Notes under the pieces: model-generated
What the model saw: the letters and a program-made list of their open reading frames with translations, nothing else
Told to the model about the DNA's origin: nothing
The model's database searches: none
Source: Hymenobacter metallilatus
Lineage (GTDB): Bacteria > Bacteroidota > Bacteroidia > Cytophagales > Hymenobacteraceae
Assembly: GCF_003944705.1 (NCBI RefSeq)
Contig: NZ_RWIS01000001.1
Span: 124,001 to 188,000 of the forward strand
Length of the DNA: 64,000 nucleotides
Direction of reading: 5' to 3'
Made by a program: the position numbers and the translations under genes
Shown here: one piece after another, positions 1 to 56,412 of the stretch
Position numbering within the stretch: the first letter of the stretch is position 1
How the letters are laid out: every line of letters begins with the position of its first letter

Positions 1-666
1 GCCGTACAGCAGGGCCTCGCCGATGCTGCGGTGCGCGGGATGATTCTGACCGGCAGCGGAGAAAAGTCGTTTGTGGCCGGGGCCGATATTGCCGAGCTGA
101 CCAAGCTGGACGACGTGGGAGGCCGCCGGGCGGCGGTGCAGGGCCAGGAGGTGTTTCGCCTAATTGAGCGCAGCCCCAAGCCCGTAATTGCCGCCGTAAA
201 TGGCTTTGCACTGGGCGGCGGCTGCGAGCTGGCCATGGCCTGCCACCTGCGCATTGCCGCCGAAAACGCCCGTTTTGGTCAGCCCGAGGTGAACCTGGGC
301 CTGGTGCCCGGCTACGGTGGTACCCAGCGTCTCACCCAGCTCATCGGCAAGGGTAAGGCCCTGGAGCTGTTGCTGACGGCCGATATGATAAAAGCCGACG
401 AGGCGCTGCGCCTGGGCCTGGTGAACCACGTAGTGCCCCAGGCTGAGCTGCTGGGCTTCACGCGCCAGTTGCTGCTGCGCATCCTCACCAAAGCCCCCAT
501 TGCCCTGGGCCTGTGCATTGACGCCGTGGATGCCTATTTCGACAAAGGCCGGGACGGCTACCAGGCCGAGGCTGACGCCTTCGCCCGCTGTTTCGCCTCC
601 GAAGATTTTAAAGAAGGCACTACGGCATTTCTGGAAAAGCGTCCGGCAGCATTTACGGGGAATTAA
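1..666 (+). CDS. Enoyl-CoA hydratase/isomerase, 5' end missing
   Basis: Crotonase-family enzyme that hydrates trans-2-enoyl-CoA in beta-oxidation-type pathways in the cytoplasm. The frame is open from base 1, so the true start lies outside the window; a GTG at 31 is internal. Seen: the oxyanion-hole segment SFVAGADIAEL, the second hole segment with the first catalytic Glu (GGGCELAMAC), and the second catalytic Glu in FGQPEVNLGLVPGYGGTQRL, all in the usual crotonase order. Both glutamates are kept, which favours a hydratase over other crotonases. About 221 residues are visible of a usual 255-265. The stop codon TAA (664-666) lies inside the first arm of a heptad repeat. Substrate chain length cannot be told. 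Confidence 0.93.
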   Translation, partial: AVQQGLADAAVRGMILTGSGEKSFVAGADIAELTKLDDVGGRRAAVQGQEVFRLIERSPKPVIAAVNGFALGGGCELAMACHLRIAAENARFGQPEVNLGLVPGYGGTQRLTQLIGKGKALELLLTADMIKADEALRLGLVNHVVPQAELLGFTRQLLLRILTKAPIALGLCIDAVDAYFDKGRDGYQAEADAFARCFASEDFKEGTTAFLEKRPAAFTGN

Positions 667-782
667 AAATTGAGAATTAAGAATTAAAAATTGCAACTAG
701 GTTTTCTCGCTTTTAGCCACAACCAGCTGCACGATAATTTCTTAACATCCGGTTTTTAATTTTTAATTCTCAATTTTTAATT
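661..782. repeat. Inverted pair of heptad arrays, site A
   Basis: Left array 661-692 reads in 7-base steps as AATTAAA, AATTGAG, AATTAAG, AATTAAA plus four bases. Right array 753-782 is its reverse complement with about one mismatch; the outer 20 bases match exactly. The loop of about 60 bases (693-752) has no gene. The left array contains the stop codon of the upstream gene, and the right array ends 7 bases before the next start codon. Confidence 0.85.
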
Positions 783-2851: not shown

Positions 2852-2982
2852 ATTAAAAATTGAGAATCAGGAAGTAAAAACCGGCCATTGTAATAGCTGA
2901 AAATCTGCTCAGATATGATGTTAAACGGTTTTTTTATTTCCTGACTCGTGACTTTTAATTCTTCATTTTTAATTTTTAATTC
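2849..2982. repeat. Inverted pair of heptad arrays with unequal arms, site C
   Basis: Left array (about 2850-2884) has five units such as GAATTAA, AAATTGA, then GAATCAG, GAAGTAA. The reverse complement of the right array (about 2926-2982) has eight units with the same outermost and innermost words and about three extra units (for example AAGTCAC, GAGTCAG) in the middle. The loop is about 45 bases. The arm touches the dut stop codon and ends 14 bases before the next start. Confidence 0.82.
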
Positions 2983-2996
2983 CTAACTGACCCCAC

Positions 2997-40370: not shown

Positions 40371-40535
<165 letters not shown>

Positions 40536-40538
<3 letters not shown>

Positions 40539-41519
40539 ACTAATCGGCACTTTGCGCAGAATGGCCTCAATCATATCCTGGGTGCGGATGCCGTCGGCCT
40601 CGGCTTCGTAGTTGAGCAGGATACGGTGATTGAGCACGTCGGCGGCTACCTCCTTGATGTCTTCGGGCAGCACGTAGTCCCGCTCATCCAGGTAGGCCAC
40701 GGCCTTGGCGGCGCGGTGCAGGGCTATGCTGGCCCGGGGGCTCACCCCAAACTGCACGTACTGCTGAAACTCGGGCAAATCATACTCGGCGGGCTTGCGG
40801 GTGGCAAAGACCAGCTCGATGATGTACTTCTCCAGCGTTTCCGAAATCTGCACCTGGTTTATCTGCTGCCGGATACCGAAGATGTCTTCCTTGGTCAGCA
40901 CCGGGTTTACCTCGCCCACGTAGCTCATGTTGGCCATGCGGCGCATCACTTCCAGCTCATCGGCTTTCTTGAGGTAGTCGACGTGTATCTTCATCATGAA
41001 GCGGTCTACCTGTGCCTCGGGCAGCGGGTAGGTACCCTCCTGCTCCACCGGGTTTTGGGTAGCCAGTACCAGAAACGGCAAATCCAGCGGATACGTGGTT
41101 TCGCCAATGGTTACCTGCTTTTCCTGCATGGCTTCCAGCAGGGCACTCTGCACCTTCGCCGGGGAGCGGTTCACCTCGTCGGCCAGCACCAGATTGGCGA
41201 AGATGGGCCCCTTCTTTACCTCAAATTCTGACTGGTTCTGGTTGTAAATCATGGTGCCCACTAGGTCGGAGGGCAACAGGTCGGGGGTGAACTGTACCCG
41301 CTGGAAGTGCAGGTGCAATACCCTGGATAAAGTACTGATGGTAAGAGTTTTGGCCAGGCCCGGCACGCCTTCCAGCAGAATATGACCACCGGTGAACAGC
41401 CCAATCAGCAGCCGGTTCAGCATGTAGTGCTGGCCTACTACCACCTTGCCCACCTCGGCAAACACCTGCTTGATTTTCTGCGGATAATCGGGAGCCGAAC
41501 CAGACTGTGGAGGCATCAT
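40536..41519 (-). CDS. MoxR family AAA+ ATPase
   Basis: Cytoplasmic AAA+ ATPase of 327 residues, a chaperone-like family that often works with von Willebrand A-domain proteins in metal insertion or complex assembly. Seen: Walker A loop ILLEGVPGLAKTLTI (the family form GxPGxAKT), Walker B with LVLADEVNRSPAKVQSALLE, sensor 1 in FLVLATQNPVEQEGTYPLPE, and the C-terminal lid domain GVSPRASIALHRAAKAVAYL. The usual partner genes (DUF58, VWA proteins) are not adjacent, as the next gene downstream is the acyltransferase. Two start codons in tandem (41519, 41516). The stop codon is made by repeat site G. Confidence 0.94.
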
Positions 41520-43532: not shown

Positions 43533-46500
43533 CTAGGTAACGGGCAGCACCGGGTTGGCATCACCGGGCGGGGTAAGCGGCGGCGCGTCCAGCTCCCGGG
43601 GGTGGTCGTCGAGGCCGGTTTCCCGGTGGGCCGCGAAATACTGCGCCAGCGCCTTTTCGCCCACCAGCCAGAATACCACCGGCGTCACGATGATATCGAG
43701 GAAGGTAGAGGATAGCAGGCCGCCGAGGATGACGGTGGCCACCGGGTAGAGGATTTCCTTGCCGGGCGCGTCCTTGGCCAGCGTGAGCGGCACCAGGGCC
43801 AGGGCCGCCACCAGGGCCGTCATCAGCACCGGCACCAAGCGCTCCAGAGAACCCCGGATCAGCATTTTTTTGCCGAACTGCTCCCCTTCGTGCTCTATCA
43901 GATGGATGTAGTGCGAAATCATCATGATGCCGTTGCGGGAGGCAATGCCGGTGAGGGTGATGAAGCCCACCAGTGAGGCAATGCTGAACGTGCCGCCCGT
44001 GAGCAGCACCGCCACCACCGAGCCAATCAGGGCCAGTGGAATATTGAGCATAATCTGGCCCACCATCCAGGAGGACTTAAAGTGCGAGAACAGCACCAGG
44101 AAGATGCCGGCCAGTGAAAACAGGCTCAGCCACAGAATCTTCTGGGAGGCCGACTGCTGGCTCTCGAACTGCCCGCCGTAGGTGAGGTAGTAGCCCGGCG
44201 GCAGCTTTACCTGCTGGCTGACTTTCTGCTGAATTTCCTTTACCGTGGAGCCCAAATCCCGCTCGGCCACGTTCAGCGAGATGGTGATGCGGCGCTGGGT
44301 GTTTTCGTGGTTGACGGTATTAGGGCCGGGCTCGTACACCACGTCGGCCACCTGGCTCACCGGAATCAGGGCCCCGCTGGGGGTTTCGATGCGGGTCTGG
44401 CTGATGGCGGCCATATCGTTGCGCTGGGATTCGGGCAGCTTCACTACTAGGTCGAAGCGCTTCTGCCCGTCGAGCATCTGCGACACCACCGCGCCCTGAA
44501 ACAGGGTTTCCAGGTCCTGCACTACTTCGCCGCGGGCCATGCCGTAGGCGCGCAGGGCTTCATCGCGGGGCCGGATGAGCAGTTGAGGAATCTGCACCTG
44601 CTTTTCTACCTGCAAATCTACCACGCCCGGCACCGTGCCGGCGGCGGCGCGCACTTCATTGGCGTAACGGCGCAGCTCCAGCAAATCATTGCCGAATACC
44701 TTGATGGCTACCTGGGCCCGCACACCCGACAAGAGGTGGTCGAGGCGGTGGGAAATGGGCTGACCGATATTCACGTTTACGCCCGTAATCAGGCTGAGCT
44801 TCTGGCGCATGTCGGCCAGAATTTCGTCGCGGCTGCGCATGGTTTTGCCTTCCTTCTCCAACTCTTCCTCGGTCTTAAAAGCCACCTCAATTTCCGAGTT
44901 GTTCACCGATTCGGCGTGCTCGTCCAGCTCGGCGCGGCCGGTGCGGCGGGCCGTGTAGGCCACTTCCGGAATCCGGAGCATCTGCTGCTCGCCTAGCGTA
45001 CCCAGGCGGTTGCTCTCGGCGAGTGAGGTGCCGGCGGGGGCCGAGAAATTGACCGTGAGCGAGCCTTCGTTGAAGGGCGGCAGAAACTCGGTGCCGAAAA
45101 ACGGGATAAGGGCCATGGCCGCCACAAATAGTGCCCCGGTAACTCCCAGTATGGCTTTAGGATGCCGCAGGCCCCAGTCCAGCAGGCGGGTGTCCTTCAT
45201 TTTCAACCAGCGCACCAGCGGCCCGTCGGTTTCGGGGTGGTCCATCTGTTTCATCTTCGGCAGCAGGTAGTAGCACAGCACCGGCGTTACGGTGAGCGAC
45301 ACGAACAGCGAGGCCACGATGCTGGTGATATAGGCAATGCCCAGGGGCGCGAAAATGCGGCCTTCCATGCCCTCCAGCGCAAACAGGGGCAAAAATACCA
45401 GCACCACAATAATGGTGGCGTACACAATGGAGTTGCGCACTTCCGAGGAGGCCGCGTAAATCACCTGGAGCACCGGCTGAGGCTGGGCCTTTCGCCGGTT
45501 TTCGCGCAGGCGGCGGTACACGTTTTCCACGTCCACAATGGCGTCGTCGACCAATTCGCCGATGGCAATGGCCAGGCCGCCCAGCGTCATGGTATTGATG
45601 CTGATGCCCGCCGCGCGGAACACCAGCGCCGTAACCAACAAGGACAGCGGAATGGCCACCAGCGAAATGAACGTGGTGCGCACGTTCAGCAGGAAGGCAA
45701 ACAGCACGATGACCACCAGAATGGCGCCGTCGCGCAGCGCCTCCTCCACGTTGCTGATCGAGGACTCAATAAACTCTGACTGCTTGAACAGCCGCGTGTT
45801 CACCTGCACGTCTGGGGGCAGGGAAGGCTGCAGCTCCACCAGGGCTTTTTCCACGGCTTCGGTGAGGCCCACGGTGGCGGCGCCGGGCTGCTTCTCGATG
45901 CTCAGAATCACGGCCGGGCGGCCGTTTACGCTCCCGTCGCCGCGCTTGAAGCGGGCCCCGAACTCCACCTTCGCCACCTCGGCCACCCGGATGGGCGACT
46001 GGTCGCGGTAGCCTACAATGATGTTTTCGATATCCTGCACCGAGCGTAGGCGGCCCAGGTTGCGGATGAGCACCTCCGAGCCGTTGCGGTCGAAGAAGTT
46101 GCCGGTGGTGTTCAGGTTGGACTGCCGCAGGGCTTCTTCCACCTGATTCACGGTGAGGCCGGTGGCATTCAGGCGGGGCATATCCAGCAGCACCTGATAC
46201 TGCAGGTTGTCGCCGCCGATGGGAATGACCTGGGCCACGCCAGGAATGCTGAGCAGGCGCTGGCGCACGGTGTAGTTGGCCAAGGTGCGCAGGTCGGCGG
46301 CGTTGGTTGGTTGGTGGTTGGTTGTTGGTTGTTGTCCGTTACCAGCAGCTGACTTCGTTTGGGGAGTAACATCAGCTTCTAACTTCTGACCTCTCGCTTC
46401 TGACTTCTCATCAATTGACGTCGAAAGCCCCACCAGCATAATCTGGCCCATAACGGAGGAAATGGGCCCCAGTACTGGCGTAATGCCTTGAGGAAGCTGC

Positions 46501-46856
46501 TCCCCAGTAGTTTGCAGCTTCTCGCTCACAATCTGGCGGGCCGTGAAGATGTCGGTGCCGTAGTCGAACTCCACGAACACCATGCCCAGGCCAATGGCCG
46601 AGTTGGAGCGCACTGCCGACACGCCGGTGGCGCCGTTCAGGGCCGTTTCCACGGGCAACGTCACCAGGGCTTCCACTTCTTCGGGAGCCATGCCGGGCGC
46701 TTCCAGAAACACGGTCACGCGGGGCCGGTCCAGGTCGGGCAGCACATCCACGGGCAATTGGCGGGCCGTGTACGTGCCGGCAATCAGGAGGCCCAGGGCA
46801 AAAGCCAGCATCAGCAGCCGGTTCTGCAGGGCAAAACGAATTATCTTATCAAGCAT
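43533..46856 (-). CDS. HME-type RND efflux pump permease with repeat-derived insertion
   Basis: Inner-membrane pump of 1107 residues of the heavy-metal RND family (CusA/CzcA-like). Seen: LPDLDRPRVTVFLEAPGMAP in the first porter domain, the TM4 proton-relay string GELVDDAIVDVENVYRRLRE, the HME string SHRLDHLLSGVRAQVAIKVF, and the second-half repeat helices (FITLTGIASRNGIMMISHYI). It works with the adaptor (47498) and TolC (49240) to push metal ions out. Residues about 147-187 form an odd hydrophilic insertion (EKSEARGQKLEA, QQPTTNHQPTN) that corresponds to two heptad arrays in the DNA. The start is ATG 46856. The ion is inferred as copper or silver from the neighbours only. Confidence 0.93.
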   Translation of the reverse strand: MLDKIIRFALQNRLLMLAFALGLLIAGTYTARQLPVDVLPDLDRPRVTVFLEAPGMAPEEVEALVTLPVETALNGATGVSAVRSNSAIGLGMVFVEFDYGTDIFTARQIVSEKLQTTGEQLPQGITPVLGPISSVMGQIMLVGLSTSIDEKSEARGQKLEADVTPQTKSAAGNGQQPTTNHQPTNAADLRTLANYTVRQRLLSIPGVAQVIPIGGDNLQYQVLLDMPRLNATGLTVNQVEEALRQSNLNTTGNFFDRNGSEVLIRNLGRLRSVQDIENIIVGYRDQSPIRVAEVAKVEFGARFKRGDGSVNGRPAVILSIEKQPGAATVGLTEAVEKALVELQPSLPPDVQVNTRLFKQSEFIESSISNVEEALRDGAILVVIVLFAFLLNVRTTFISLVAIPLSLLVTALVFRAAGISINTMTLGGLAIAIGELVDDAIVDVENVYRRLRENRRKAQPQPVLQVIYAASSEVRNSIVYATIIVVLVFLPLFALEGMEGRIFAPLGIAYITSIVASLFVSLTVTPVLCYYLLPKMKQMDHPETDGPLVRWLKMKDTRLLDWGLRHPKAILGVTGALFVAAMALIPFFGTEFLPPFNEGSLTVNFSAPAGTSLAESNRLGTLGEQQMLRIPEVAYTARRTGRAELDEHAESVNNSEIEVAFKTEEELEKEGKTMRSRDEILADMRQKLSLITGVNVNIGQPISHRLDHLLSGVRAQVAIKVFGNDLLELRRYANEVRAAAGTVPGVVDLQVEKQVQIPQLLIRPRDEALRAYGMARGEVVQDLETLFQGAVVSQMLDGQKRFDLVVKLPESQRNDMAAISQTRIETPSGALIPVSQVADVVYEPGPNTVNHENTQRRITISLNVAERDLGSTVKEIQQKVSQQVKLPPGYYLTYGGQFESQQSASQKILWLSLFSLAGIFLVLFSHFKSSWMVGQIMLNIPLALIGSVVAVLLTGGTFSIASLVGFITLTGIASRNGIMMISHYIHLIEHEGEQFGKKMLIRGSLERLVPVLMTALVAALALVPLTLAKDAPGKEILYPVATVILGGLLSSTFLDIIVTPVVFWLVGEKALAQYFAAHRETGLDDHPRELDAPPLTPPGDANPVLPVT
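46302..46411 (-). repeat. Heptad arrays inside the RND coding sequence, site H
   Basis: On the minus strand 46373-46411 steps as AGAAGTC, AGAAGCG, then AGAGGTC, AGAAGTT, AGAAGCT. 46302-46335 steps as CAACAAC, CAACAAC, then CAACCAC, CAACCAA. The two words differ, are not inverted copies of each other, and are joined by about 37 bases. The frame stays open through both. Confidence 0.82.
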
Positions 46857-46957
46857 CGGTTCTAGAGCGCAAAGAGGAACGAGCGGAGCACCCGGGGTGG
46901 TGCCTGGCTGCTGAATCAAGAGTGGCCGGGCGGCTGACCGTTAAGGCCCACACTGCC

Positions 46958-47482
46958 TTATTTCTTGGTTCGGGGCGTGCGGGCAGAGGTGTGCGTACTC
47001 AGTATCTGCCACCGACCGGCGGCGTTTTTGCGCAGCACCGACGTCGCTACCCCCCGGCGTACAATAGGGGCTTTAGCCTGCTTGTCCTGGGGGCCTTTCC
47101 TAAGGTCGATGGTGTAGGTATAGGTTTCCGTCGCAAAGGCGTAAGAACCATCTACCTGCACCTGAGACTTATAGTCACTGAAGGTGAAAGCACTGAACTC
47201 CTTGAGCTCGGGGGCCAGGTGGTGCGCCGCGTAGTGCCGATACGTACCCTCCACCCCACCCGACTCAAACACCTGCGAGTTGGCCGTAAAGAGGTGGTGT
47301 GTGCCCGTAGTATCAAGCTTCTGCACAGCCTGCTGGTACTGAGTCAGCACGGCTTTCACGGCAGCCTCGTCGGCAGTTACCGGAGCCGTCTGGGCCCGGG
47401 CCGCTGCGCCGGCCAACAGCAGAGCACCGCCGAGTAGTGCTACAGCCTGTTGGTTTGGGAGGGGAAAGCAGGAAAATATCAT
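46958..47482 (-). CDS. Exported NTF2/SnoaL-like (DUF4440-type) protein
   Basis: Protein of 174 residues with a signal peptide (AVALLGGALLLAGAAARAQ). The mature part looks like an NTF2-fold domain of the SnoaL/DUF4440 kind: a helix (EAAVKAVLTQYQQAVQKLD), then HLFTANSQVFESGGVEG, a stretch with several Tyr (YAFATETYTYTIDLRKG) and a final strand (RRGVATSVLRKNAAGRWQIL). No catalytic function can be assigned. It lies between the adaptor gene (15-base gap) and the RND gene (101-base gap), all on the minus strand, so it is most likely part of the metal efflux operon; a periplasmic role is inferred. Confidence 0.78.
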   Translation of the reverse strand: MIFSCFPLPNQQAVALLGGALLLAGAAARAQTAPVTADEAAVKAVLTQYQQAVQKLDTTGTHHLFTANSQVFESGGVEGTYRHYAAHHLAPELKEFSAFTFSDYKSQVQVDGSYAFATETYTYTIDLRKGPQDKQAKAPIVRRGVATSVLRKNAAGRWQILSTHTSARTPRTKK

Positions 47483-47497
47483 GAAAGAAGTCGGTTA

Positions 47498-48643
47498 TTA
47501 CTGATTGAGGTAGATGGACTTGAGCTGGTAGGTACCGGCCGTTACCACCCGGTCGTTTTCGTTTACCTGGCCCTGCACCAGTACAGTCTGCTGGCCGCTG
47601 ATGGCCCCAGGCTGCACATAGCGAATCTTGAACCGCTCGGGCTCGGTGTGCACAAATACCACCGGCTTGCCATTAAGGTCGGTGATGGCCGTGGTGGGTA
47701 CCACCAGCTGGGGAGTACCCCCTCCGGCCTGACCGACTACCTGCACGTTCACGGCCTGGCCGGCACGGTAGGCACTACCCGCCGGGGCATCCAGCTCCAG
47801 CACCAGCTGCCGGGCCTGGTTCACGGGGTTTACCACGTTGCTGAACACTACCAGCCGGGCCGGCACACCGGCCTGGCCCTGCAACCCCTCCACCCGAAAC
47901 TGCGCGCCGGGCGTGACTTTGGCCAGATCCTGGGCAAACACCTGGGCTTCCACGCGCAGCTTGCCGGGGTTGATGACCCGGAACAGCTCGTCGCCCTGAT
48001 TGACCTGCTGGCCCACGGCCAGACTAAACACATCCACGGTGCCACTTACCGGGGAGGTAATAGTCACGCGCCGCTGCTGGGCCTGCCCGTTGTAGATGGC
48101 TGCGTTCTGGCGGGCTTGGCGCAGGCGCAGCTCGGCGGCTACCACATCTTTGCGGGCGGCAATGTCGGCAATGCTCTGCAGGCGGGCATAGTCCTGTTGG
48201 GCGGCGCGCAACTCGGCCTGGGCGTTGGCCCGCTCGGTGCTGAGGCCAATTTGCTGGGTAGCATCCAGCGTCTGCTCGATGACGGCCAGCGTCTGCCCGG
48301 CCCGCACGGCCTGGCCCACCTGCGCGGCCAGGCTGACGATGCGCCCGGTCTGAGGCACCACAATGCGCCCTTCGCCTCCGGCCGCCGCCGATACCGTGCC
48401 GTAGAGCGTAGCCCGGCTGTAGGTGGTGGAGTAGGCGGCCAGCTGGGTGCGCACCTCGAACAGAAACTGGCTTTCCTTGGGCAGCAGCACCTCGTCGGTG
48501 AGGGCCACGCCGGTGCTGGCTTTAGCGGTGCCGCCGTGGTCTTCGCCCCCGTGGGCCTGCACCAGGCCGGGTGGGGGCAGCAGCACCGTCAGCACGAGGC
48601 CGGCGGCGGCGGTGGCGACCAGAAACTTATGCGTGGTTTTCAT
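47498..48643 (-). CDS. RND efflux periplasmic adaptor (membrane fusion protein)
   Basis: Membrane fusion protein of 381 residues linking the RND pump to TolC. N-terminal signal/anchor (KFLVATAAAGLVLTVLLPPP), then a His-rich start of the mature part (VQAHGGEDHGG), a barrel-sandwich half-lipoyl motif (GRIVSLAAQVGQAVRAGQTL), a coiled-coil hairpin (about residues 140-195), the second lipoyl half (RVTITSPVSGTVDVFSLAVG) and the beta-barrel/MP domains (VPTTAITDLNGKPVVFVHTE). The AHGGEDHG string also begins the mature form of the next protein upstream, suggesting metal capture. The ATG at 48643 overlaps that gene by 17 bases. Confidence 0.93.
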   Translation of the reverse strand: MKTTHKFLVATAAAGLVLTVLLPPPGLVQAHGGEDHGGTAKASTGVALTDEVLLPKESQFLFEVRTQLAAYSTTYSRATLYGTVSAAAGGEGRIVVPQTGRIVSLAAQVGQAVRAGQTLAVIEQTLDATQQIGLSTERANAQAELRAAQQDYARLQSIADIAARKDVVAAELRLRQARQNAAIYNGQAQQRRVTITSPVSGTVDVFSLAVGQQVNQGDELFRVINPGKLRVEAQVFAQDLAKVTPGAQFRVEGLQGQAGVPARLVVFSNVVNPVNQARQLVLELDAPAGSAYRAGQAVNVQVVGQAGGGTPQLVVPTTAITDLNGKPVVFVHTEPERFKIRYVQPGAISGQQTVLVQGQVNENDRVVTAGTYQLKSIYLNQ

Positions 48644-49238
48644 GGGCAGCGGCAGTAGTAGAAGTGGAAACAGAAGCAACCGCCCGGCGGCGCATAAGCA
48701 GGGCCGTGAGGCCAATACCCAGCCCGAAGGCCCCAAGCAGGGCGGCAATGGTTTTCCAGGAGGAAAAAAGTCCGGCAGTGGCTGCCACCGGCGCTTCGAC
48801 TACGGGCAGCTTCTCCCCCACCTTAATGCCTTCGAGTAGTACCAGGTCAGCCCGCTCCCCGGCCACGATGTTTGCCGCGAAGCTGTAGGCTTTATCGGCC
48901 GGAAACTCTCCTTCCACCAGGTAGATACCGGGCTCCTGCTCCGTTACGGCCCATTTCAGCGCCGCGTCTTCGGGGTTGGTGAGCGTGAGTTTGGCGCCTC
49001 TGATGGGGGCGTTGGTGGCGTAATCGGAGAGGAACAGGCGCAGGTCGGCGGGTTGGCCGCCTTCCAGAGGCTCGTAGCGCAGCAGTACCTCAAACTGTTC
49101 GGAAAGGGCCGCCACGGAAAAAGACGTGGCCCCGGCTGCAGTTGGGGCTTTGGCCGCGTCGCCGTGGTCTTCGCCCCCGTGGGCATAGGCCGTGCCGGTC
49201 AGCAGCAGGCTCAGCAGCAAAAAGAGTAGCTGTTTCAT
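48627..49238 (-). CDS. Exported membrane-anchored protein with HGGEDHG motif, unknown family
   Basis: Protein of 203 residues: signal peptide (QLLFLLLSLLLTGTAYA), then AHGGEDHGDAAKAP, an Ig-like beta domain of about 100 residues (FEVLLRYEPLEGGQPADLRL, GIYLVEGEFPADKAYSFAAN), and a C-terminal transmembrane helix (TIAALLGAFGLGIGLTALLM) followed by a short basic and His-ending tail (HENHA). I do not recognise a named family. It is in the efflux operon, between TolC (1-base gap) and the adaptor (17-base overlap), sharing its N-terminal His motif with the adaptor. A periplasmic metal-handling accessory to the pump is inferred. Confidence 0.8.
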   Translation of the reverse strand: MKQLLFLLLSLLLTGTAYAHGGEDHGDAAKAPTAAGATSFSVAALSEQFEVLLRYEPLEGGQPADLRLFLSDYATNAPIRGAKLTLTNPEDAALKWAVTEQEPGIYLVEGEFPADKAYSFAANIVAGERADLVLLEGIKVGEKLPVVEAPVAATAGLFSSWKTIAALLGAFGLGIGLTALLMRRRAVASVSTSTTAAAHENHA

Positions 49239-49239
49239 G

Positions 49240-50487
49240 TTATTCGCCCCGCAGGTAGTTGAGTTCGATGAGGGCCTGGCGGTAGTCACGGATGGTCGTC
49301 AGGTAGGTGTTCTGGATGGCAAAAGCCTGGTTCAGACTCAGGATCAGCTGCAGGTAGCTGGCTTCTCCGGCCTGAAACAGGCGCTGCGACTGGCTGATGA
49401 TGGCCCGCGACTGAGGCAGGCCGGTTTGCTCGTAGTAAGCCAGAGAGGCCGAGAACTTGCGCGTGTCGGCCAGGGCCTGCTGGTACTGGCTGCTGAGCTC
49501 CAGGCGCTGGGTCTGCAGCTGGTAGCTGGCCGCCTGGGAGCGGGCCGTAGCCGCCTGTAGCTGGGCGCGGTAGGTCCAGAACCATACGGGCACCGACACC
49601 CCAAACTGAAAGCGGTAGCGGAGCGCCGAGTTTTCAAACGCCTGGTTCTGGTAGCCCAGCGTGAGGGCCGGGGTGCGCCGGGCCCGCACCAGGCTAATGC
49701 CCGACTGGCTCAGGGCCACGTTCTGGGTGGCGGCGGCCAGGGTAGGGCTGCGCACCAGGGCGGCACTGTCTTCGGTGGGCAGGCCGCCGAGCAGGGCCGT
49801 GCCGGTTTGGGCCAGCTCCGGTCCACTACGGCCCAGGTCGGTGCTGGTGGCCAGGGCCGCGGTGGGGCGGCCCAGCAGTAGCCCCAGCCGGCGCTGAGCG
49901 GCCTGTTGGTCGGCGGTGGCCTGTTGCAGCAGCACGGTTACCTGCCGGGCTTCGGCGTCGGTGCTGATGCGCTGCAGGGAGGTGACTTCGCCGGCCGTAA
50001 ACAGCCGTTCCGTAGCCAGGCGTAATGCCCGAAACAGGCTGTCCTGGTAGGTGAGCTGGCGCACCTGGGCCTCGGCAAACTGCAGCGCCAGGTAAGCCAG
50101 GCGGGTATCGCGCAGTACCGTGGCCCGGCTCACGTCCTGGTTGCGCTCGGCCAGCGTTACGCCGGCCTCGGCCACCTGCCGCTGCCGCCGGTACACGTTG
50201 GGCAAATCGATGGTTTGCACCACGCCCGGGGCCCACATTTCGCCCGTAGGGGCCGAGAACAGAAAGTCCGGGTTGGCGGGGGCAAAGGAACCCCGCTTCA
50301 GGGCGCGCTGCTCCTCAATCTCCTGGGCCGACTGCCGCAGCCGGGGGTGGCGGCGCAGGGTCTGGGCCTCGGCGCTGTCCAGGCTGATAACGGTTTGGGC
50401 CCGCGCCCCAACCAGGCCCGGCCCTACCAGCAGCCCTACCACCGCCAGCCACCGGCGCAGCCCATAGGGTATTCTCAACGACTTCAT
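49240..50487 (-). CDS. TolC family outer-membrane efflux protein
   Basis: Outer-membrane channel of 415 residues (CusC/TolC type), the exit duct of the RND pump. Signal peptide (WLAVVGLLVGPGLVGARAQ), then the two-fold repeated OEP layout of long amphipathic helices (LDSAEAQTLRRHPRLRQSAQ, TSLQRISTDAEARQVTVLLQ, SYQLQTQRLELSSQYQQALA) and short barrel strands (FGVSVPVWFWTYRAQLQAA). No lipobox Cys is seen, so unlike E. coli CusC it may not be lipidated. ATG 50487. It is the gene after the HMBD protein and is followed at once by the HGGEDHG protein. Confidence 0.92.
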   Translation of the reverse strand: MKSLRIPYGLRRWLAVVGLLVGPGLVGARAQTVISLDSAEAQTLRRHPRLRQSAQEIEEQRALKRGSFAPANPDFLFSAPTGEMWAPGVVQTIDLPNVYRRQRQVAEAGVTLAERNQDVSRATVLRDTRLAYLALQFAEAQVRQLTYQDSLFRALRLATERLFTAGEVTSLQRISTDAEARQVTVLLQQATADQQAAQRRLGLLLGRPTAALATSTDLGRSGPELAQTGTALLGGLPTEDSAALVRSPTLAAATQNVALSQSGISLVRARRTPALTLGYQNQAFENSALRYRFQFGVSVPVWFWTYRAQLQAATARSQAASYQLQTQRLELSSQYQQALADTRKFSASLAYYEQTGLPQSRAIISQSQRLFQAGEASYLQLILSLNQAFAIQNTYLTTIRDYRQALIELNYLRGE

Positions 50488-50581
50488 ACAATCAGGATAA
50501 AAACCAGCCCAGGGGCCGCCCGCCGCGGCAAGCGGCCCGGCCAGAGCAAAACCGGCTGCCCGCCAGGGCAACCTCCGCCTC

Positions 50582-51121
50582 CTACTTTTTCACGAGGGCC
50601 ATGCCGCAGGTGGGGCAGCTGCCGGGCTTGGTGCTGGCGCTGCCGGCGCAGCCCATTGGGCAGGCGTAGCTCACGGCTTTTGCCTTGGCGGCGGTACTGG
50701 CCAGCTTATCGAAGCGGGCGTTAATAGTTTCGCTGCCCCGACGCAGGGTGATAATGGCCGTGGTGGGGGTAGCGCCGGCCGGCAGGGTACCACGCAGCTG
50801 GTCGGCGGCCGGCGTGAGAGCCACGGAGGTAGTTTTGCCGCCCTGCTGCACCATAGCCGTGCCCGTTAGGCCCGTGGTGGGCTGGGTTTTCTCCTGGCCA
50901 TCGAGCAGGTACACGGTCATCTGGCCGGCTTTAACCACCAGCTCCACATGGTACTTGCCCGCCGTGCGCACAATGCCTCCGTGCGGGGCCGAGTGAGCAT
51001 GGGTTTCGCCGGCGGCATTGTGGCCGTGACCGGCCGCGCCGGGCTTGTGCGTGTGCTGGGCCGAGAGGGTCAGCGGTGCGGCCAGCATTAGGGCGGCCGC
51101 AAACAGGTGCATCAGTTTCAT
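50582..51121 (-). CDS. Exported His-rich protein with heavy-metal-binding domain
   Basis: Protein of 179 residues. Signal peptide (HLFAAALMLAAPLTLSAQ), a His-rich stretch (HTHKPGAAGHGHNAAGETHA), a beta domain starting APHGGIVRTAGKYHVELVV, and a C-terminal HMBD-type motif, ACPMGCAGSASTKPGSCPTC with GMALVKK, which usually reads YxCPMHPxV ... CPxCGM. Here the His after CPM is Gly-Cys instead, a small departure. It probably binds copper or a related ion in the periplasm. In the metal operon between the DUF305 and TolC genes. ATG 51121. Confidence 0.87.
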   Translation of the reverse strand: MKLMHLFAAALMLAAPLTLSAQHTHKPGAAGHGHNAAGETHAHSAPHGGIVRTAGKYHVELVVKAGQMTVYLLDGQEKTQPTTGLTGTAMVQQGGKTTSVALTPAADQLRGTLPAGATPTTAIITLRRGSETINARFDKLASTAAKAKAVSYACPMGCAGSASTKPGSCPTCGMALVKK

Positions 51122-51178
51122 AAAAAAGAGGTAAAAAAGGGAGATTGAACGGGAACCAGAGGCTACTTAGCCGCCGGG

Positions 51179-51898
51179 CTACATCTTATCGGCGTTCTGC
51201 TGGTGCCACTCCTTGAACTGCTGGATTTCCTTCTGCTGAGCGTTGATAATCATCTGCGCCATTTCCTTGAGCTTGGTGTCCTTGCCGTGGGCCAGTTCGG
51301 CCCGGGCCATATCCACGGCGCTTTGGTGGTGCAGGGTCATGAGCATATTGAAGTTCATGTCTGGGTTGGCTACGGGCTGGGGCATGTTCTGCATCATCAC
51401 GTCCATGGAAGCCTTCATCTTGCTGGTGAAGGGGTCAGCAGGGTTGTTGGGCTGGTAGTTGGTGGGGGCGTTATCGAGGCGGGTGGCCGCAGCTTCCAGC
51501 GCCGTTATTTCCTGCTGCTGGTCGGCTTTAATTTTTTCGGCCATGCGGCGCATGGTAGCGTCTTTGCCGTCGCGCAGCTCCAGGTCGGCCATTACCACCG
51601 CGCCTTTGTGGTGCTCCAGCATGTGGTAGGCAAAGTCGTGGTCGGTGTTGCCCTTGGGCTTGGTGGCGTGCATCTTCTGCATCATCTCGTTCATGGCCAC
51701 CAGCTGGGGGGAGCCGCCGGCCGCCGCGCTGTCGTGGCCCATGGCCGCGTGGTCCATGCCGGCCATGTCGTGGGCCTCCGCAGCGGCGCCGGTTTCAGTC
51801 GTCGTGGCCGACGACCCGGTGGTTTTATCGGGGGTGCAGCTGGTGGTCAGAAGGGTACCTGCACAAAAGGCGGCGAGGAAAAAAGCAGACTGTTTCAT
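51179..51898 (-). CDS. DUF305 family lipoprotein (CopM-like)
   Basis: Predicted lipoprotein of 239 residues: signal with lipobox TTSC (Cys21). The DUF305 body has two similar halves, each with the typical His/Met cluster: DHDFAYHMLEHHKGAVVMAD and NMLMTLHHQSAVDMARAEL. It is also rich in Met (MAGMDHAAMGHDS near the N-terminus). DUF305 proteins such as cyanobacterial CopM bind copper; a similar role fits the surrounding genes. It is separated from the HMBD protein gene by 57 bases, and upstream lies heptad repeat site I. ATG 51898. Confidence 0.9.
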   Translation of the reverse strand: MKQSAFFLAAFCAGTLLTTSCTPDKTTGSSATTTETGAAAEAHDMAGMDHAAMGHDSAAAGGSPQLVAMNEMMQKMHATKPKGNTDHDFAYHMLEHHKGAVVMADLELRDGKDATMRRMAEKIKADQQQEITALEAAATRLDNAPTNYQPNNPADPFTSKMKASMDVMMQNMPQPVANPDMNFNMLMTLHHQSAVDMARAELAHGKDTKLKEMAQMIINAQQKEIQQFKEWHQQNADKM

Positions 51899-51900
51899 GG

Positions 51901-52013
51901 GTTGAGTGGTAAATGGCTGGTTGTTTGTGGATGGTTGCCACCTGCACGTTGTTAGTTGTTAGTCAGATTTTTAACAAGAACCCGACAACTGACAACGAGC
52001 AACTGACAACTCA
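51901..52013. repeat. Heptad arrays, site I
   Basis: Right array about 51983-52013 steps as CAACTGA, CAACGAG, then CAACTGA, CAACTCA. A shorter left array (about 51946-51968) reads CACGTTG, TTAGTTG, TTAGTCA, the inverted form. A second, looser 7-base array (GTGGTAA, ATGGCTG, GTTGTTT) lies at about 51906-51940. The region fills the gap between the DUF305 start and the stop of the next gene. GACAACGAGCAAC is shared with site E. Confidence 0.78.
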
Positions 52014-52027
52014 GATGAAAATGAGCA

Positions 52028-52975
52028 CTAGGCCTTCACGTTGATGGTGAAGTCGCCGGTGTGGATTTTGCCCGCGTGGTTAAACTGCAGGAACACGCGG
52101 TAGAGGCCGGGCTTCTCGAAGTTGGTATTGAAGCCGATGTTGGGGCCTTTGTCGGCCTGCTCGTTGGGGTGCACGTGCAGGTAGTTCTCGGTATCCTCGC
52201 TAATGACCACCACGTGGCCCAGGGCCCCGAGGTAATTGGCCAGGTCCGTCACGGGCTGTCCGTCTTTACTGATGTTGATTTTCATGCCCAGCAGCTGGCC
52301 CACTTTCAGCTCCTTGTCAAAGGAAAGGGTGGCCTGGTAGCCGTCCTGCTGCCACTGCATGTCGTCGTTTTTGAACTTGACCGGAGCATAAGCCGGGCCC
52401 GCCACCGTGAGCGGCTGGCGGCCCAGCTGGTGGCCCGAGCCGGTGGGCGTATAGTCCTGAAATAGCACGTAGTCGCCGCCCTTCGGGAAGGTGTACTGCA
52501 CTTTGTAGTCGCCCTGGGCAGTATACTCGGGGTGCTCGTGATAGAACTGGCCCAGGTCTTTGCTGACGATGATGAGGTGAATCTTCTTCTCGTGCACTAC
52601 GGCCAGGGGCACGGGGGCTGCTTCGTTACCGGTTTCCACGGGCATGAAGGCTAGGGTGACGGGCTGCCCGGCTGTTACCTGCGCGGGTGTGGGCACCAGC
52701 TTCATCTGGTAGGTTTTGCCGTTGCTCACCTGGTCATTGTGCTCCAGGTTCATGCCGCACTTGGGGCACTTCTGGCCCTCTTTGGTGCTGGTTACCTCTG
52801 GGTGCATGGGGCAGGCATAGGTGTGGCCGCCGCTGTGGTCGGCGGTGCCTTCGGCCGGGCCGTTGGTGGGAGTGGTAACGGCAGAGGTGGCACTGCTGGA
52901 AGCTGAATCGGAGGAGCAGTTGGCCGTGGTGAGCAGGCTGGCCACGGCCAGCAGAGAAAGTGGTAGGCGGTACAT
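52028..52975 (-). CDS. HMBD-containing lipoprotein (metal-binding)
   Basis: Protein of 315 residues with a lipoprotein signal (LSLLAVASLLTTANCSS). The N-terminal mature part has the heavy-metal-binding motif YACPMHPEVTSTKEGQKCPK followed by CGMNL. The rest forms two Ig-like domains with many His residues placed as in Bacteroidota proteins of copper/silver islands (VVHEKKIHLIIVSKDLGQFY, HEHPEYTAQGDYK, LGHVVVISEDTENYLHVHPN, FNHAGKIHTGDFTINV). Metal binding in the periplasm is inferred. The ATG at 52975 is used because it gives the signal; a C9 tract lies 12 bases upstream of it. Confidence 0.86.
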   Translation of the reverse strand: MYRLPLSLLAVASLLTTANCSSDSASSSATSAVTTPTNGPAEGTADHSGGHTYACPMHPEVTSTKEGQKCPKCGMNLEHNDQVSNGKTYQMKLVPTPAQVTAGQPVTLAFMPVETGNEAAPVPLAVVHEKKIHLIIVSKDLGQFYHEHPEYTAQGDYKVQYTFPKGGDYVLFQDYTPTGSGHQLGRQPLTVAGPAYAPVKFKNDDMQWQQDGYQATLSFDKELKVGQLLGMKINISKDGQPVTDLANYLGALGHVVVISEDTENYLHVHPNEQADKGPNIGFNTNFEKPGLYRVFLQFNHAGKIHTGDFTINVKA

Positions 52976-52986
52976 AACAGGAAAAT

Positions 52987-52995
52987 GGGGGGGGG
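52987..52995 (-). repeat. C9 homopolymer just upstream of the HMBD lipoprotein start
   Basis: Nine G on the plus strand, nine C on the coding strand, ending 11 bases before the ATG at 52975. Long C/G tracts this close to a start can change length by slippage and alter expression. Confidence 0.7.
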
Positions 52996-53077
52996 TGAAT
53001 ACAGAGCAGCCCGGCAAAAAGCCGTTCAAAGCTGCGCCCCGGAAACCGGGGCCTGGCTCCAGGGCCATTGCTACCCG

Positions 53078-53100
53078 GCCTCCGTGTCAGCACGGAGGCC
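53078..53100. terminator. GC hairpin between metal-binding protein genes
   Basis: GGCCTCCGTG (53077-53086) pairs perfectly with CACGGAGGCC (53091-53100), loop TCAG. It lies in the 306-base gap (52976-53281), which has no supported gene. No T tract follows on either strand, so it may be an mRNA-processing or attenuating structure. Confidence 0.5.
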
Positions 53101-53281
53101 GGCCGCAAAGCCGGGCCGATGCAAAGGGCGTGAGCAGCCCGGCTCAGAAGCGGAGTTCACCGGAACCGGAAATCAGGAGGAAAGCGTGGGCGCAAAACAG
53201 CGCGGCAGGACACACCATAGCAAAGGCCCGCCCCGGACATAGCACAGCTATGCCAGGACGAGCCTTGGGCGCGTCAATAAC

Positions 53282-53761
53282 TCAGACCGTCAGGGACTGA
53301 ATAAAAATCCGGATGTCGGGGATTTTGGGCGGCAGATGCTCCCGGGGCACCAATACTACCGCGTGAGTACGGTCCCAGTGGCCGGCGGCCGGCCGGAACA
53401 GGAAGTCGTGGCGGGCGGGCAGAAGAGCCGGGGCGGCGGAAAGCAGGTGTTTTTCGCCGGGTGCCGTAAGCGACTTAAGCACAGCCACCGAGCTGTCTTT
53501 GCAGCAGGAATCCTGGCCCGATGACTTAGACGTATGATGGCCGTGGGTGCCCTGGGCTTTGGCCGATTTCTGCTGGGCCGGTGCCTTTGCGTGGCCGTGG
53601 CAGCCCGGATGAGCGGGTTTCGGGGCCAGCGCCTGCGCAGTGGGCGCAGTGGGCCCTGGCTTGAGCGTAGCGCACCAGCACTGGCCCACCAACACGTTGA
53701 CGAAGACGAGCAGGAAGCTCGTCGACAGCAAACGGCGTAAGGGAAACAGGCTACGGAACAT
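53282..53761 (-). CDS. Small Cys/His-rich exported protein, HYC_CC_PP-like
   Basis: Protein of 159 residues with an N-terminal signal-like helix (LLSTSFLLVFVNVLVGQCWC). Then His-rich segments (PAHPGCHGHAKAP, GTHGHHTSKSS), a CC pair (DSCCKDSS) and a C-terminal PP followed by a hydrophobic end (PPKIPDIRIFIQSLTV). The order recalls the small HYC_CC_PP family of Bacteroidota found with metal genes; here the HYC motif reads CWC. It is the first gene of the minus-strand metal cluster and stands divergent to copA with 377 bases between. A metal-binding or sensing role is inferred, not shown. Confidence 0.65.
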   Translation of the reverse strand: MFRSLFPLRRLLSTSFLLVFVNVLVGQCWCATLKPGPTAPTAQALAPKPAHPGCHGHAKAPAQQKSAKAQGTHGHHTSKSSGQDSCCKDSSVAVLKSLTAPGEKHLLSAAPALLPARHDFLFRPAAGHWDRTHAVVLVPREHLPPKIPDIRIFIQSLTV

Positions 53762-53953
53762 AACAGGCGCTAAGCAACTGCAAAACTACGCTTCTGCTCA
53801 GAAAGTGCAGAGCATAAGTACTACTATTAATCAGCAGAAAGGGTTTCACCCTGGGGCGCACCTGTCACCGGCTCGTCGTCAGAATACTATTTACCACTTT
53901 GCCAGGGGTGATTTTCACATTTCCCCGTCTAGGCAAGCGCAGGCACACAGCCC

Positions 53954-54074
53954 CAAATTATGCAAGTGCGCCGCCCAAGTTTTGTAGCTGCGCGGCAGGA
54001 GGCTCCGGTACAAATTATGCAGGTTTTCGGGAAGGATTTCGTACCAACCCTGCCCGGTGGATGCCGTTCCTTTG
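53954..54074 (+). promoter_or_regulatory. copA upstream region with direct repeats
   Basis: CAAATTATGCA occurs twice, at 53954-53964 and 54011-54021 (57 bases apart, about 5.4 helical turns), each followed by (A/G)GT. TTCCTTTG at 54067-54074 is one base off a -7 box. The repeats are candidates for a metal-responsive operator shared by the divergent genes. The rest of the 53762-54138 gap shows nothing clear. Confidence 0.45.
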
Positions 54075-54138
54075 CAAGTAGGTTGTGAGACCCGGCTGCC
54101 GGTTGCGGCTGGCCGGATGCCCCCGCCCCCTCCCGTAT

Positions 54139-56412
54139 ATGGAACCAACCACCAAAACCGAAACCCTCGATATTGAAGGCATGACTTGCGCCTCCTGCGC
54201 CGCCTTCGTTGAGAAGTCCCTGACGCGCACGCCCGGCGTACAGCGGGCCATGGTCAACTTCGCCACTGAAAAGGCCACCATCGACTACCTCCCGGCCCAG
54301 GCCAGCCCCGCCACCCTCCGGCAGGCCGTGGTGGCGGCCGGCTACGGCGTAAGTGAGCGGGCCCCCGATACCAGCGCCGCCGACCGGCAGGCTGAAATAG
54401 ACGAGCAGAAAGCCCGGGCCTACCAGAAACTCAAGCACCGCTTCTGGGTAGCGGCCGGGCTGGCCGCCGTCATCATGCCCCTGAGCATGCTCATGCTGTG
54501 GCCAGCTCTGCTGCAGCGCGTGAATATGCACTGGCTTAACTATGGCCTGCTCCTGCTTACCCTGCCGGTGCTGCTGTATAGCGGGCGGGAGTTTTATACC
54601 TCGGCCTGGAACGGCTTCCGGCACCGGGCGGCCAATATGGATACGCTGATAGCCGTGGGCACTGGGGCGGCCTTTCTCTACAGCCTGGCGGCTACCGTGG
54701 TGCCGGGCTGGTTTATGCGCCGGGGCATCATGCCCGAGGTGTACTATGATACCACGGCCACCATCATTGCCCTGATTCTACTGGGCAAGGTGCTGGAGCT
54801 ACGGGCCAAAACCCAAACTTCGGCCGCCATCAAAGCCCTGATGGGCCTGCAGGCCAAAACGGCCCGGGTGGTGCGTCCCGATGGTCAGGAAGTAGACGTG
54901 CCCATTGAACACGTGCAACTCCACGACCTCATTGTGGTCCGCCCTGGTGAGAAAGTCGCCACCGACGGCCTCATCGAGGAAGGCCATTCGGCCGTGGACG
55001 AAGCTATGCTCACCGGGGAAAGCCTGCCCGTCGAAAAGAAAGCCGGCGACCCGGTGTTTGGGGCCACGCTCAATAAAACGGGCTCCTTCCGCTTCCGCGT
55101 GACCAAGGTAGGGGCCGATACCCTGCTTTCCCAGATTGTGAAGCTGGTGGAAGACGCCCAGGGCAGCCGCGCCCCCATTCAGCGCCTGGCCGATAAGGTC
55201 AGCGCCATCTTCGTGCCTAACGTGGTGGTCATTGCCATTCTCACGTTCGTGCTCTGGTTTGATCTGGCTCCGGTGGAAAGCCGCTTGCCGCTGGCGTTGG
55301 TCAACTTCGTGGCCGTGCTCATCATTGCCTGCCCCTGCGCGCTGGGCCTGGCTACGCCCACGGCCATCATGGTCAGCACCGGCAAAGGGGCCGAGCACGG
55401 CGTGCTGATTCGCAACGCCGAGGCACTGGAAAAAGCCTACCAGGTAACCACCGTGCTACTCGACAAAACCGGCACCATCACCCGCGGCGAGCCTACCGTC
55501 ACGGATTTTGTGCCGGCGGCCGGGCAAGAGGTGGGCTGGCTGCTGCAGCTGGTAGCGGCAGTGGAGCGGCAGAGTGAGCACCCGCTAGCCGAGGCCGTGG
55601 TGCGCTACGCCGATTCTCAGCATACTGCCCTGATTCCGGCCACGGGTTTTCAGGCCATTGAAGGCAAGGGCGCGCAGGCCGTGGTAAACAGCCAGCCCGT
55701 GCTTATCGGCAACTTCCGCCTGCTCGAAGAAGCGGGCATCGGGCTGCCCCCAGCCCTGCGCCAGCATGCCGATGAGCTACTAGTTCAGGCCAAAACGGTG
55801 CTCTACGTGGCCGTGGCCGGCCAGGCGGCCGGTGTTATCGGGGTAGCCGATACCGTGCGCGAAACGTCGGCGGCGGCCATTAAGCGGCTGCAAAGCATGG
55901 GACTGGAAGTGGTGATGATGACCGGCGACAACCCCCAAACGGCCGCCCAGGTGGCCGGGCAGGTAGGCATCAGGCGCTACTTTGCCGAGGTGCTGCCCAG
56001 TGGCAAGGCCGGCAAGGTACAAGAGCTGCAGGCCGAAGGCCGCGTGGTGGCCATGGTCGGCGACGGTATCAACGATGCACCTGCCCTGGCCCAGGCCGAC
56101 ATTGGTTTGGCCATGGGCGGCGGCACCGACGTGGCCATGGAGGCAGCTGGCATCACCCTCATGCGCTCCGACCTGCGGGGCGTGGTGACGGCCATCGACC
56201 TCTCGCGCCAGACCATTCGTACCATTCGGCAAAATCTGTTTTTCGCCTTCATCTACAATGTTCTGGGCATCCCCATTGCGGCGGGCCTGCTGTATCCGGT
56301 CTTCGGTATCCTGCTTTCGCCCATGCTGGCGGCCGGCGCTATGGCCCTGAGTTCCGTTTCGGTACTTACCAACTCGCTGCGCCTGCGCAGCTTCTCCCCG
56401 CTTCAAAACTAG
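54139..56412 (+). CDS. copA: Copper-translocating P1B-type ATPase (CopA-like)
   Basis: Inner-membrane ATPase of 757 residues that exports Cu(I). One N-terminal HMA domain with CxxC ([20 protein letters not shown]), eight expected membrane helices, the ion-channel motif [10 protein letters not shown], the phosphorylation site [12 protein letters not shown], the nucleotide-domain HP motif ([10 protein letters not shown]), the hinge [17 protein letters not shown], and the last helix [17 protein letters not shown], whose MxxSS pattern marks Cu(I)-type P1B-1 pumps. The ATG at 54139 is chosen from the HMA start. It is divergent from the minus-strand RND operon, and the cupredoxin gene follows 4 bases after its stop. 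Confidence 0.96.

Follow-up and report, generated by a model that had tools for sequence, protein, structure and literature searches.

How does a conserved metal pump come to carry tandem seven-nucleotide repeats within its coding sequence, and how does the protein accommodate them? The question is raised by a gene of Hymenobacter metallilatus that lies in the window, i.e. the whole stretch of 64,000 nucleotides analysed here. An earlier note on this DNA had proposed that two heptad arrays entered the gene in frame and were tolerated by its product. The gene belongs to a metal operon, for which the following features were recorded.

43533..46919, minus strand: HME-RND pump permease of the CusA/CzcA family (ORF, TIGR00914, CusA chains); likely start, the ATG at 46856.
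47498..48748, minus strand: periplasmic adaptor (CusB/CzcB-like) adjoining the pump gene (TIGR01730, 116 bits, cut-off 94.9).
49240..50571, minus strand: probable TolC-like outer membrane subunit (TIGR01845, 21.7 bits, below the cut-off of 210).

In a profile search, TIGR00914 matched residues 1-1068 of the pump with 825.9 bits (cut-off 701.45), which identifies a CusA/CzcA heavy-metal RND permease. Its best solved relative was CusA (E 1.9e-135), and the seven best Foldseek matches of its structural model were CusA or CusBA entries (best E 2.1e-61, TMq 0.75). At the position equivalent to 49240..50571, a TolC family protein is annotated in H. volaticus. In many Hymenobacter species, plasmids and chromosomes alike carry the metal operon and its neighbouring genes (window 43533-56409) as a group.

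The repeats are located in a loop bounded by GQIMLVGL and LRTLANYT, which consists largely of two period-7 arrays.

46293..46424, minus strand: variable loop of 44 aa, 9-12 aa in the relatives' short form (loop comparison, pLDDT).
46308..46421, minus strand: repeat-derived stretch of 38 aa (TSIDEKSEARGQKLEADVTPQTKSAAGNGQQPTTNHQP) in place of the short form's GGxx (comparison with L031).
46374..46410, minus strand: first heptad array, with coding-strand units of the AGAAGTC type (period-7 scan).
46306..46346, minus strand: second heptad array, with coding-strand units of the CAACAAC type (period-7 scan).

Compared with the nearest short gene (L031), the 38-aa stretch runs from the first Ser to TNAAD, where the short form SGGxxTNAAD has four residues, i.e. 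a net gain of 34 aa. Neither 5000 base shuffles nor 5000 codon shuffles, the latter run on the window's loop alone, ever attained the maximal lag-7 score of this loop (23/28); lag 4 likewise scored 23, because of the CAAC part. As the pump ORF runs uninterrupted through the loop over 1128 aa, the proposal of two heptad arrays with the frame kept is sound. Arrays of the same period occur outside genes in the window.

657..702, unstranded: heptad array of the GAATTAA type outside genes, paired with an arm at 748-782.
748..782, unstranded: heptad array outside genes, the arm opposite 657-702 (period-7 scan).
2942..2990, unstranded: heptad array outside genes, TTTTAAT type (period-7 scan).
40450..40545, unstranded: near-perfect heptad array, ATCATTC x11, probably outside genes.

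The last of these sits inside a 271-codon ORF that we judged not to be real, and the reverse complement of the array at 2942-2990 resembles, by eye, the loop starts of two other pump genes (L002, L014).

These arrays are a general feature of the genome. In 464 kb of it we counted 34 period-7 arrays vs 1 in Markov-simulated DNA, other periods from 5 to 14 giving 0 to 9 arrays, and a further 400 kb yielded 14 vs 0 in the control. Outside the pump loop, 25/32 arrays have a complementary partner (at least 17 of 21 positions complementary, within 150 bp) vs 0/96 control comparisons, and heptad arrays are therefore mostly hairpin-forming elements. Several inverted pairs outside genes form long imperfect hairpins (L125 3442-3648; L128 2266-2359; L123 2758-2832; window 657-782). 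The other arrays of the 464-kb sample showed no strand preference (14 with A > T and 17 with T > A on the plus strand). The pump loop of the window, for its part, holds single array arms without a hairpin (z +1.1). AGAAGT-type arrays lie at five other places of the same genome, allowing up to 3 mismatches. No source copy of the insert was found among eight genomes, the best other match being about 38 nt at 87% in another genome.

Occurrence within genes is rare. In the 464-kb sample, ORFs of 150 codons or more contain ten of the 34 arrays, of which three were kept after inspection, in two genes (pump, 2; a radical SAM gene, 1), so that intragenic arrays as a common class were rejected. Among these ten, two precede the likely start of genes with Pfam domains (L127, L125 3562), and five lie in ORFs judged antisense or due to chance, one of which was searched in Pfam with no match. 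In the next 400 kb, three arrays fell in coding-like ORFs; the one in MetH was kept, and L438 and L444 were judged not to be real genes. The 100 kb of contig C7, which carries a second, short-loop copy of the pump (G000:C7:1-100000, L117-L121), contained no period-7 array, the other contigs 34 in 364 kb. Arrays are generally rare around the metal island (0.7 per 100 kb beside short genes, 2.8 beside long genes), and for that reason the absence from C7 was not taken as proof.

The same site was then compared between relatives, using 120 genomes of the genus plus one genome per species (best 80 of 288 stretches). Loops were read for 108 of 110 loci; L085 and L098 were left out. With further loci added, identical genes collapsed and 14 genes from outside Hymenobacter set apart (also from the flank tests below), 80 distinct Hymenobacter pump genes were obtained, 18 with long loops (26-47 aa) and 62 with short ones (9-12 aa). 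The long state, whose uniqueness to this strain the earlier note had asked to be checked, is thus found in 18/80 genes at the same site with differing contents. The homologues of equal length in many genera that would have refuted the note's proposal were not encountered: each of the 14 genes read from other genera has 9 aa at this site. Among 40 additional pump copies, some of them genes already counted, 39 loops were read, all of them short; L250 (G075) and, elsewhere, L144 (G061) were left out. The word insertion fits the gain of residues, less so its manner: GG follows the first loop residue in 54/62 short loops vs 0/18 long ones, and the long loop therefore looks, at the sequence level, like a replacement of the short loop and not like a clean insertion. 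By eye, we recognised no target-site duplication at the long loops.

Replicon type was considered and rejected as the cause of loop length, since 19 copies read on contigs of at least 0.5 Mb comprised 8 long and 11 short loops. In 17 of 18 Hymenobacter plasmid records the query coverage (83-87%) was that expected for a short loop, a length inferred from coverage; the eighteenth was the 330-kb plasmid of H. volaticus, whose pump has a long loop equal to that of L012. Short loops in plasmid copies and long loops in chromosomal ones are only a tendency.

What fills the long loops differs between species. Several heptad arrays (TTAAAAA, AATTAGC, CAGTTAAC, AGCTAAC, CAACAAC, AGAAGTC-like) were found, together with a CTCCCCCTCTC..GAGAGGGGG palindrome, both kinds occurring as dispersed repeats too. 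The element GGCTCCCCCTCTC..GAGAGGGGGCCGGGGGGTGAGG, or a near form, is present in seven long loops (L002, L003, L006, L009, L010, L011, L014), eroded in L012 and probably so in L008. Exact dispersed copies of this palindrome were found in 91/120 genomes of the genus, with 0 matches to a reversed control pattern. In G009, which has 20 copies including one in the pump, the pump variant is the commonest central variant (10/20), and the loop of G012 likewise bears the commonest variant of its genome (6/12). The loop variant of G053 matches that of G012; the loop elements of G021 and G115 have diverged too far to fit the pattern. A fixed element made of heptads plus palindrome was not supported, an array lying within 150 bp of only 4/29 palindromes vs 44/1450 random points. 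Heptads, the content named in the earlier note, hold as contents of the loop, to which a palindromic element and two other genes (see below) have to be added.

Could such loops be an ordinary product of protein evolution? According to this explanation, a low-complexity hydrophilic linker would have evolved at the protein level and period 7 would be a by-product of Q/N/T/K-rich codons. Four of the 18 long loops, L015, L067, L079 and L141 (the last two of 29 aa), show no significant period 7 in base shuffles (p <= 0.001 in the other 14), which agrees with it. However, seven is no codon multiple, the window's loop (the one loop so tested) beat 5000/5000 codon shuffles, and seven loops hold copies of a dispersed palindrome. 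We regard this explanation as extremely improbable.

The number of origins was addressed with trees, identical genes being collapsed beforehand. A tree was built from 86 proteins without their loops (17 of them long); 12 changes are needed on it to explain the long state, at least 8 of them forced by starred branches. A single clade of the 18 long genes was rejected by the DNA flanks at 200, 300 and 400 nt per side (AU p 2.7e-4, 4.5e-20 and 3.0e-4, respectively). The sister of the window's pump is a gene with a short loop (L017/L031, Hymenobacter sp. BT190). The loops of the sister genes L005 and L006 start alike, with 17 matches in the opening 20 nucleotides, and then one continues with AGCTAAC-type heptads and the other with the palindrome; such a like start followed by unlike repeats shows turnover inside the loop.

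The interleaving of long and short genes might also result from a single event, and this is the main competitor to repeated acquisition. One ancient insertion in one pump copy would have been diversified by point mutation and heptad slippage, and short alleles, mostly on plasmid-sized contigs, would have recombined with it. Several observations go in this direction. Wherever a long loop has the palindrome (seven cases), the heptads come first and the palindrome after them, with strand and frame the same throughout, and several long loops begin IKNEELKIKN-like. This common order, frame and start suggests that part of the loop was inherited from a common ancestor or transferred, even though stop codons close all but one or two of the six frames in these loops. 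The short form is nearly constant (SGG or TGG in 54/62), so that losses of the loop would need recombination with a short allele. The metal island occurs on plasmids and chromosomes and is common to different species and replicons, and the trees of pump and rpoB disagree, from which it follows that the interleaving partly reflects transfer. Moreover, the loop palindromes of G053, G073 and G025 are not the common variants of their own genomes. Against a single insertion, a common clade of the long genes is already rejected by flanks of no more than 200 nt, the contents can be recognised as separate repeats and not as drifted versions of one sequence, and supported sister pairs at a second site, described next, have different occupants. 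On balance we hold the single insertion to be rather unlikely; some shared descent and transfer of loops is likely to have accompanied repeated acquisition.

Two more genes carry in-frame heptads at a linker.

L111 1816-4128 (G000:C11): radical SAM gene (L111/L321) of the B12-binding type, with a linker near residues 284-331 of P0002.
L448 12296-12344 (G000:C11:482296-482344): heptad array in frame in MetH.

In Pfam, the first protein matches Radical_SAM at 395-554 above the cut-off and B12-binding at 208-266 under it (E 2.8e-5), and an in-frame heptad hairpin (z -5.3) lies between the two matches. Fifty genes were compared at this site (the 30 best-scoring loci and 20 hand-picked ones, from 60 genomes with a match), and occupants were classified by a rule set for this analysis from motifs and lag-7 matches: 10 were empty (12-21 aa), 19 held GCTGAGC-type palindromes, 16 heptad arrays and 5 something else, three of these five being minisatellite-like. 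Long in-frame minisatellite-like repeats were seen at this linker in three species (L359, L360, L361). The GCTGAGC palindromes encode a recurring peptide here. On the tree of these genes the occupant changes 20 times vs a minimum of 3; shuffled labels averaged 25.4 changes and were as low in 1/200, which indicates that the occupant is partly inherited. Three pairs of sister genes differ in occupant (L331/L343, L327/L353, L364/L369). In genus g5 of the same family, four genes have long linkers as judged by match length (L383, L384, L385, L386), and most genera look empty. Of the 28 near-exact GCTGAGC palindromes in G110, a single one (L410) is located within a coding-like ORF, close to the N-terminus. 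As a candidate mover of the RAYT kind, a Y1 transposase (Y1_Tnp) was found in 7/9 genomes, G110 and G102 being the two without it.

MetH was identified by TIGR02082 (1755.8 bits, cut-off 1010.85). Its heptads encode residues 689-705, which places them after Pterin_bind (410-648) and ahead of the B12-binding_2 cap (711-784). Out of the best 30 of 61 genomes, 29 genes were read (L481 was left out): 21 have a 12-aa form (QKDKVEVVADAW or near) and 8 have 16-17 aa, six of which are heptad-like by eye. To judge from their sequences, the radical SAM and MetH linkers behave like the pump site, with contents that differ between species.

In the pump, the flanks of the loop are subject to strong purifying selection. 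In 11 long/short pairs, dN/dS was 0.00-0.05 before the loop and 0.04-0.18 after it, for which reason the long-loop genes look functional. The long loops are all hydrophilic (GRAVY from -0.53 to -1.71), and in all 18 A exceeds T on the coding strand, in contrast to the even split of the other arrays of the genome sample. AlphaFold2 gave pLDDT < 50 at residues 149-181 of the ATG-started pump (mean of the model 70), with means of 24-29 in three blocks from 151 to 180, a strand at 138-146 before the loop and a helix at 186-202 after it; the loop is thus predicted to be disordered. An in-frame gain of the same period-7 kind as that of the window's intergenic sites, tolerated by a protein, agrees with what had been claimed for this gene.

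Might the loop be adaptive, its variation tuning the contact with the adaptor or acting as a contingency locus? In the alignment with the ATG-started pump, CusA covers residues 1-140 and 185-1064 and skips the stretch between. In the 3k07 chain the gap is bounded by positions 148 and 160, i.e. native residues 140 and 152 when 8 is subtracted (the Met aligned with residue 1 being at chain position 9). In the PN2 subdomain of CusA, R147 and D155 are reported as CusB contacts (PMC3637150). Since R147 lies inside the gap and D155 is paired with the Asp at the end of the loop, the loop may have an effect on the adaptor. However, the same phenomenon occurs in two unrelated enzymes, no one peptide is common to the contents, and the loop is predicted to be disordered; it would also be a poor tuner, because adding or removing one 7-nt unit shifts the reading frame. 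An adaptive role thus seems to us very improbable.

The explanation that we consider probable is that a permissive PN2 loop has been repeatedly filled by copies of dispersed repeats, later swapped or eroded, under selection for contents that are in frame, stop-free and hydrophilic. It is backed by one site with different repeats, the frame kept, selection on the flanks, dispersed copies of the contents and interleaving on the tree. The sources would be single arms of heptad hairpins and a MITE-like CTCCCCC...GGGGG palindrome, and contents may be exchanged or eroded after entry. Entry itself might proceed by transposition, by template switching at hairpins, or by recombination or gene conversion between repeats. 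Selection would retain acceptable contents and leave a functional pump with a disordered, species-specific loop of 26-47 aa, and we infer that this loop is near neutral for the pump. A bolder version, which we put forward tentatively and find doubtful, is that an active process of Hymenobacter chromosomes writes dispersed hairpin repeats (heptad hairpins and palindromes) into a few linkers of conserved proteins that serve as fixed docking places, and goes on exchanging one repeat for another, heptad hairpins being a mobile or template-copied class of their own. If this were true, linker segments of conserved proteins would be composed by the repeat population of the genome.

In-frame insertion of repeats is best known from Rickettsia, intracellular bacteria with small genomes, and the likeness to their palindromic elements that had been suggested for this pump is apt. 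In the open-licence literature, we found no work on palindromic intergenic repeats of Hymenobacter, and for in-frame palindromic insertions in Bacteroidetes only unrelated work. Length variation of a PN2 loop, possibly the same one, has a precedent in two HME-RND pumps of Caulobacter: the PN2 loop is large in CzrA and small in NczA, and its length differs between HME-RND groups (PMC3637150). That difference separates two orthologous groups and is not described as repeat-derived in the part of the source available.

A degenerate seven-nucleotide unit is also known elsewhere. The heptamer TAACTGA has been reported from Beggiatoaceae, cyanobacteria and five Bacteroidetes, and P6b of the Nostoc tRNA-Leu intron is a hairpin of degenerate heptanucleotides that varies between genotypes (excerpts of PMC4679880, PMC3488679). 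The Hymenobacter arrays share the degenerate units, tandem 7-nt units being above chance in the genome of the window. They differ in that one genome has many different heptads, mostly with a nearby complementary partner, and that some are translated in conserved proteins.

RPEs are dispersed repeats in frame in unrelated genes, and orthologues may bear different RPE groups at or near one place, according to the parts seen of PMC3767692 and PMC10969869. Like them, the Hymenobacter loops are in-frame dispersed repeats inside functional genes. Unlike RPEs, they occur in a free-living genus of Bacteroidota, include heptad arrays among their contents, and swap unrelated repeats at one site with many changes on the tree; the palindrome of 100-150 bp with a conserved peptide that characterises RPEs has no counterpart in the pump loops, that of the window lacking a hairpin and the loops sharing no common peptide. 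REP/MITE sequences (GTAG and CGTC REPs) are palindromes that are mostly intergenic and sometimes intragenic; different REPs lie at about the same recB site in two Xanthomonas species, and flexible linkers or loops have been proposed as neutral places for REPs (PMC3733652, seen in part). Where those are GTAG or CGTC REPs, the Hymenobacter sites hold CTCCCCC...GGGGG and GCTGAGC palindromes and heptad arrays or hairpins, across many species of the genus.

RPEs and intragenic REPs are the closest known kind for the Hymenobacter loops. The new aspect is a free-living genus in which the same linker, in many species, holds unrelated repeats in each other's place. Such natural replicates may serve to study how repeats move, how linkers gain non-coding DNA sequence and what makes a site permissive.
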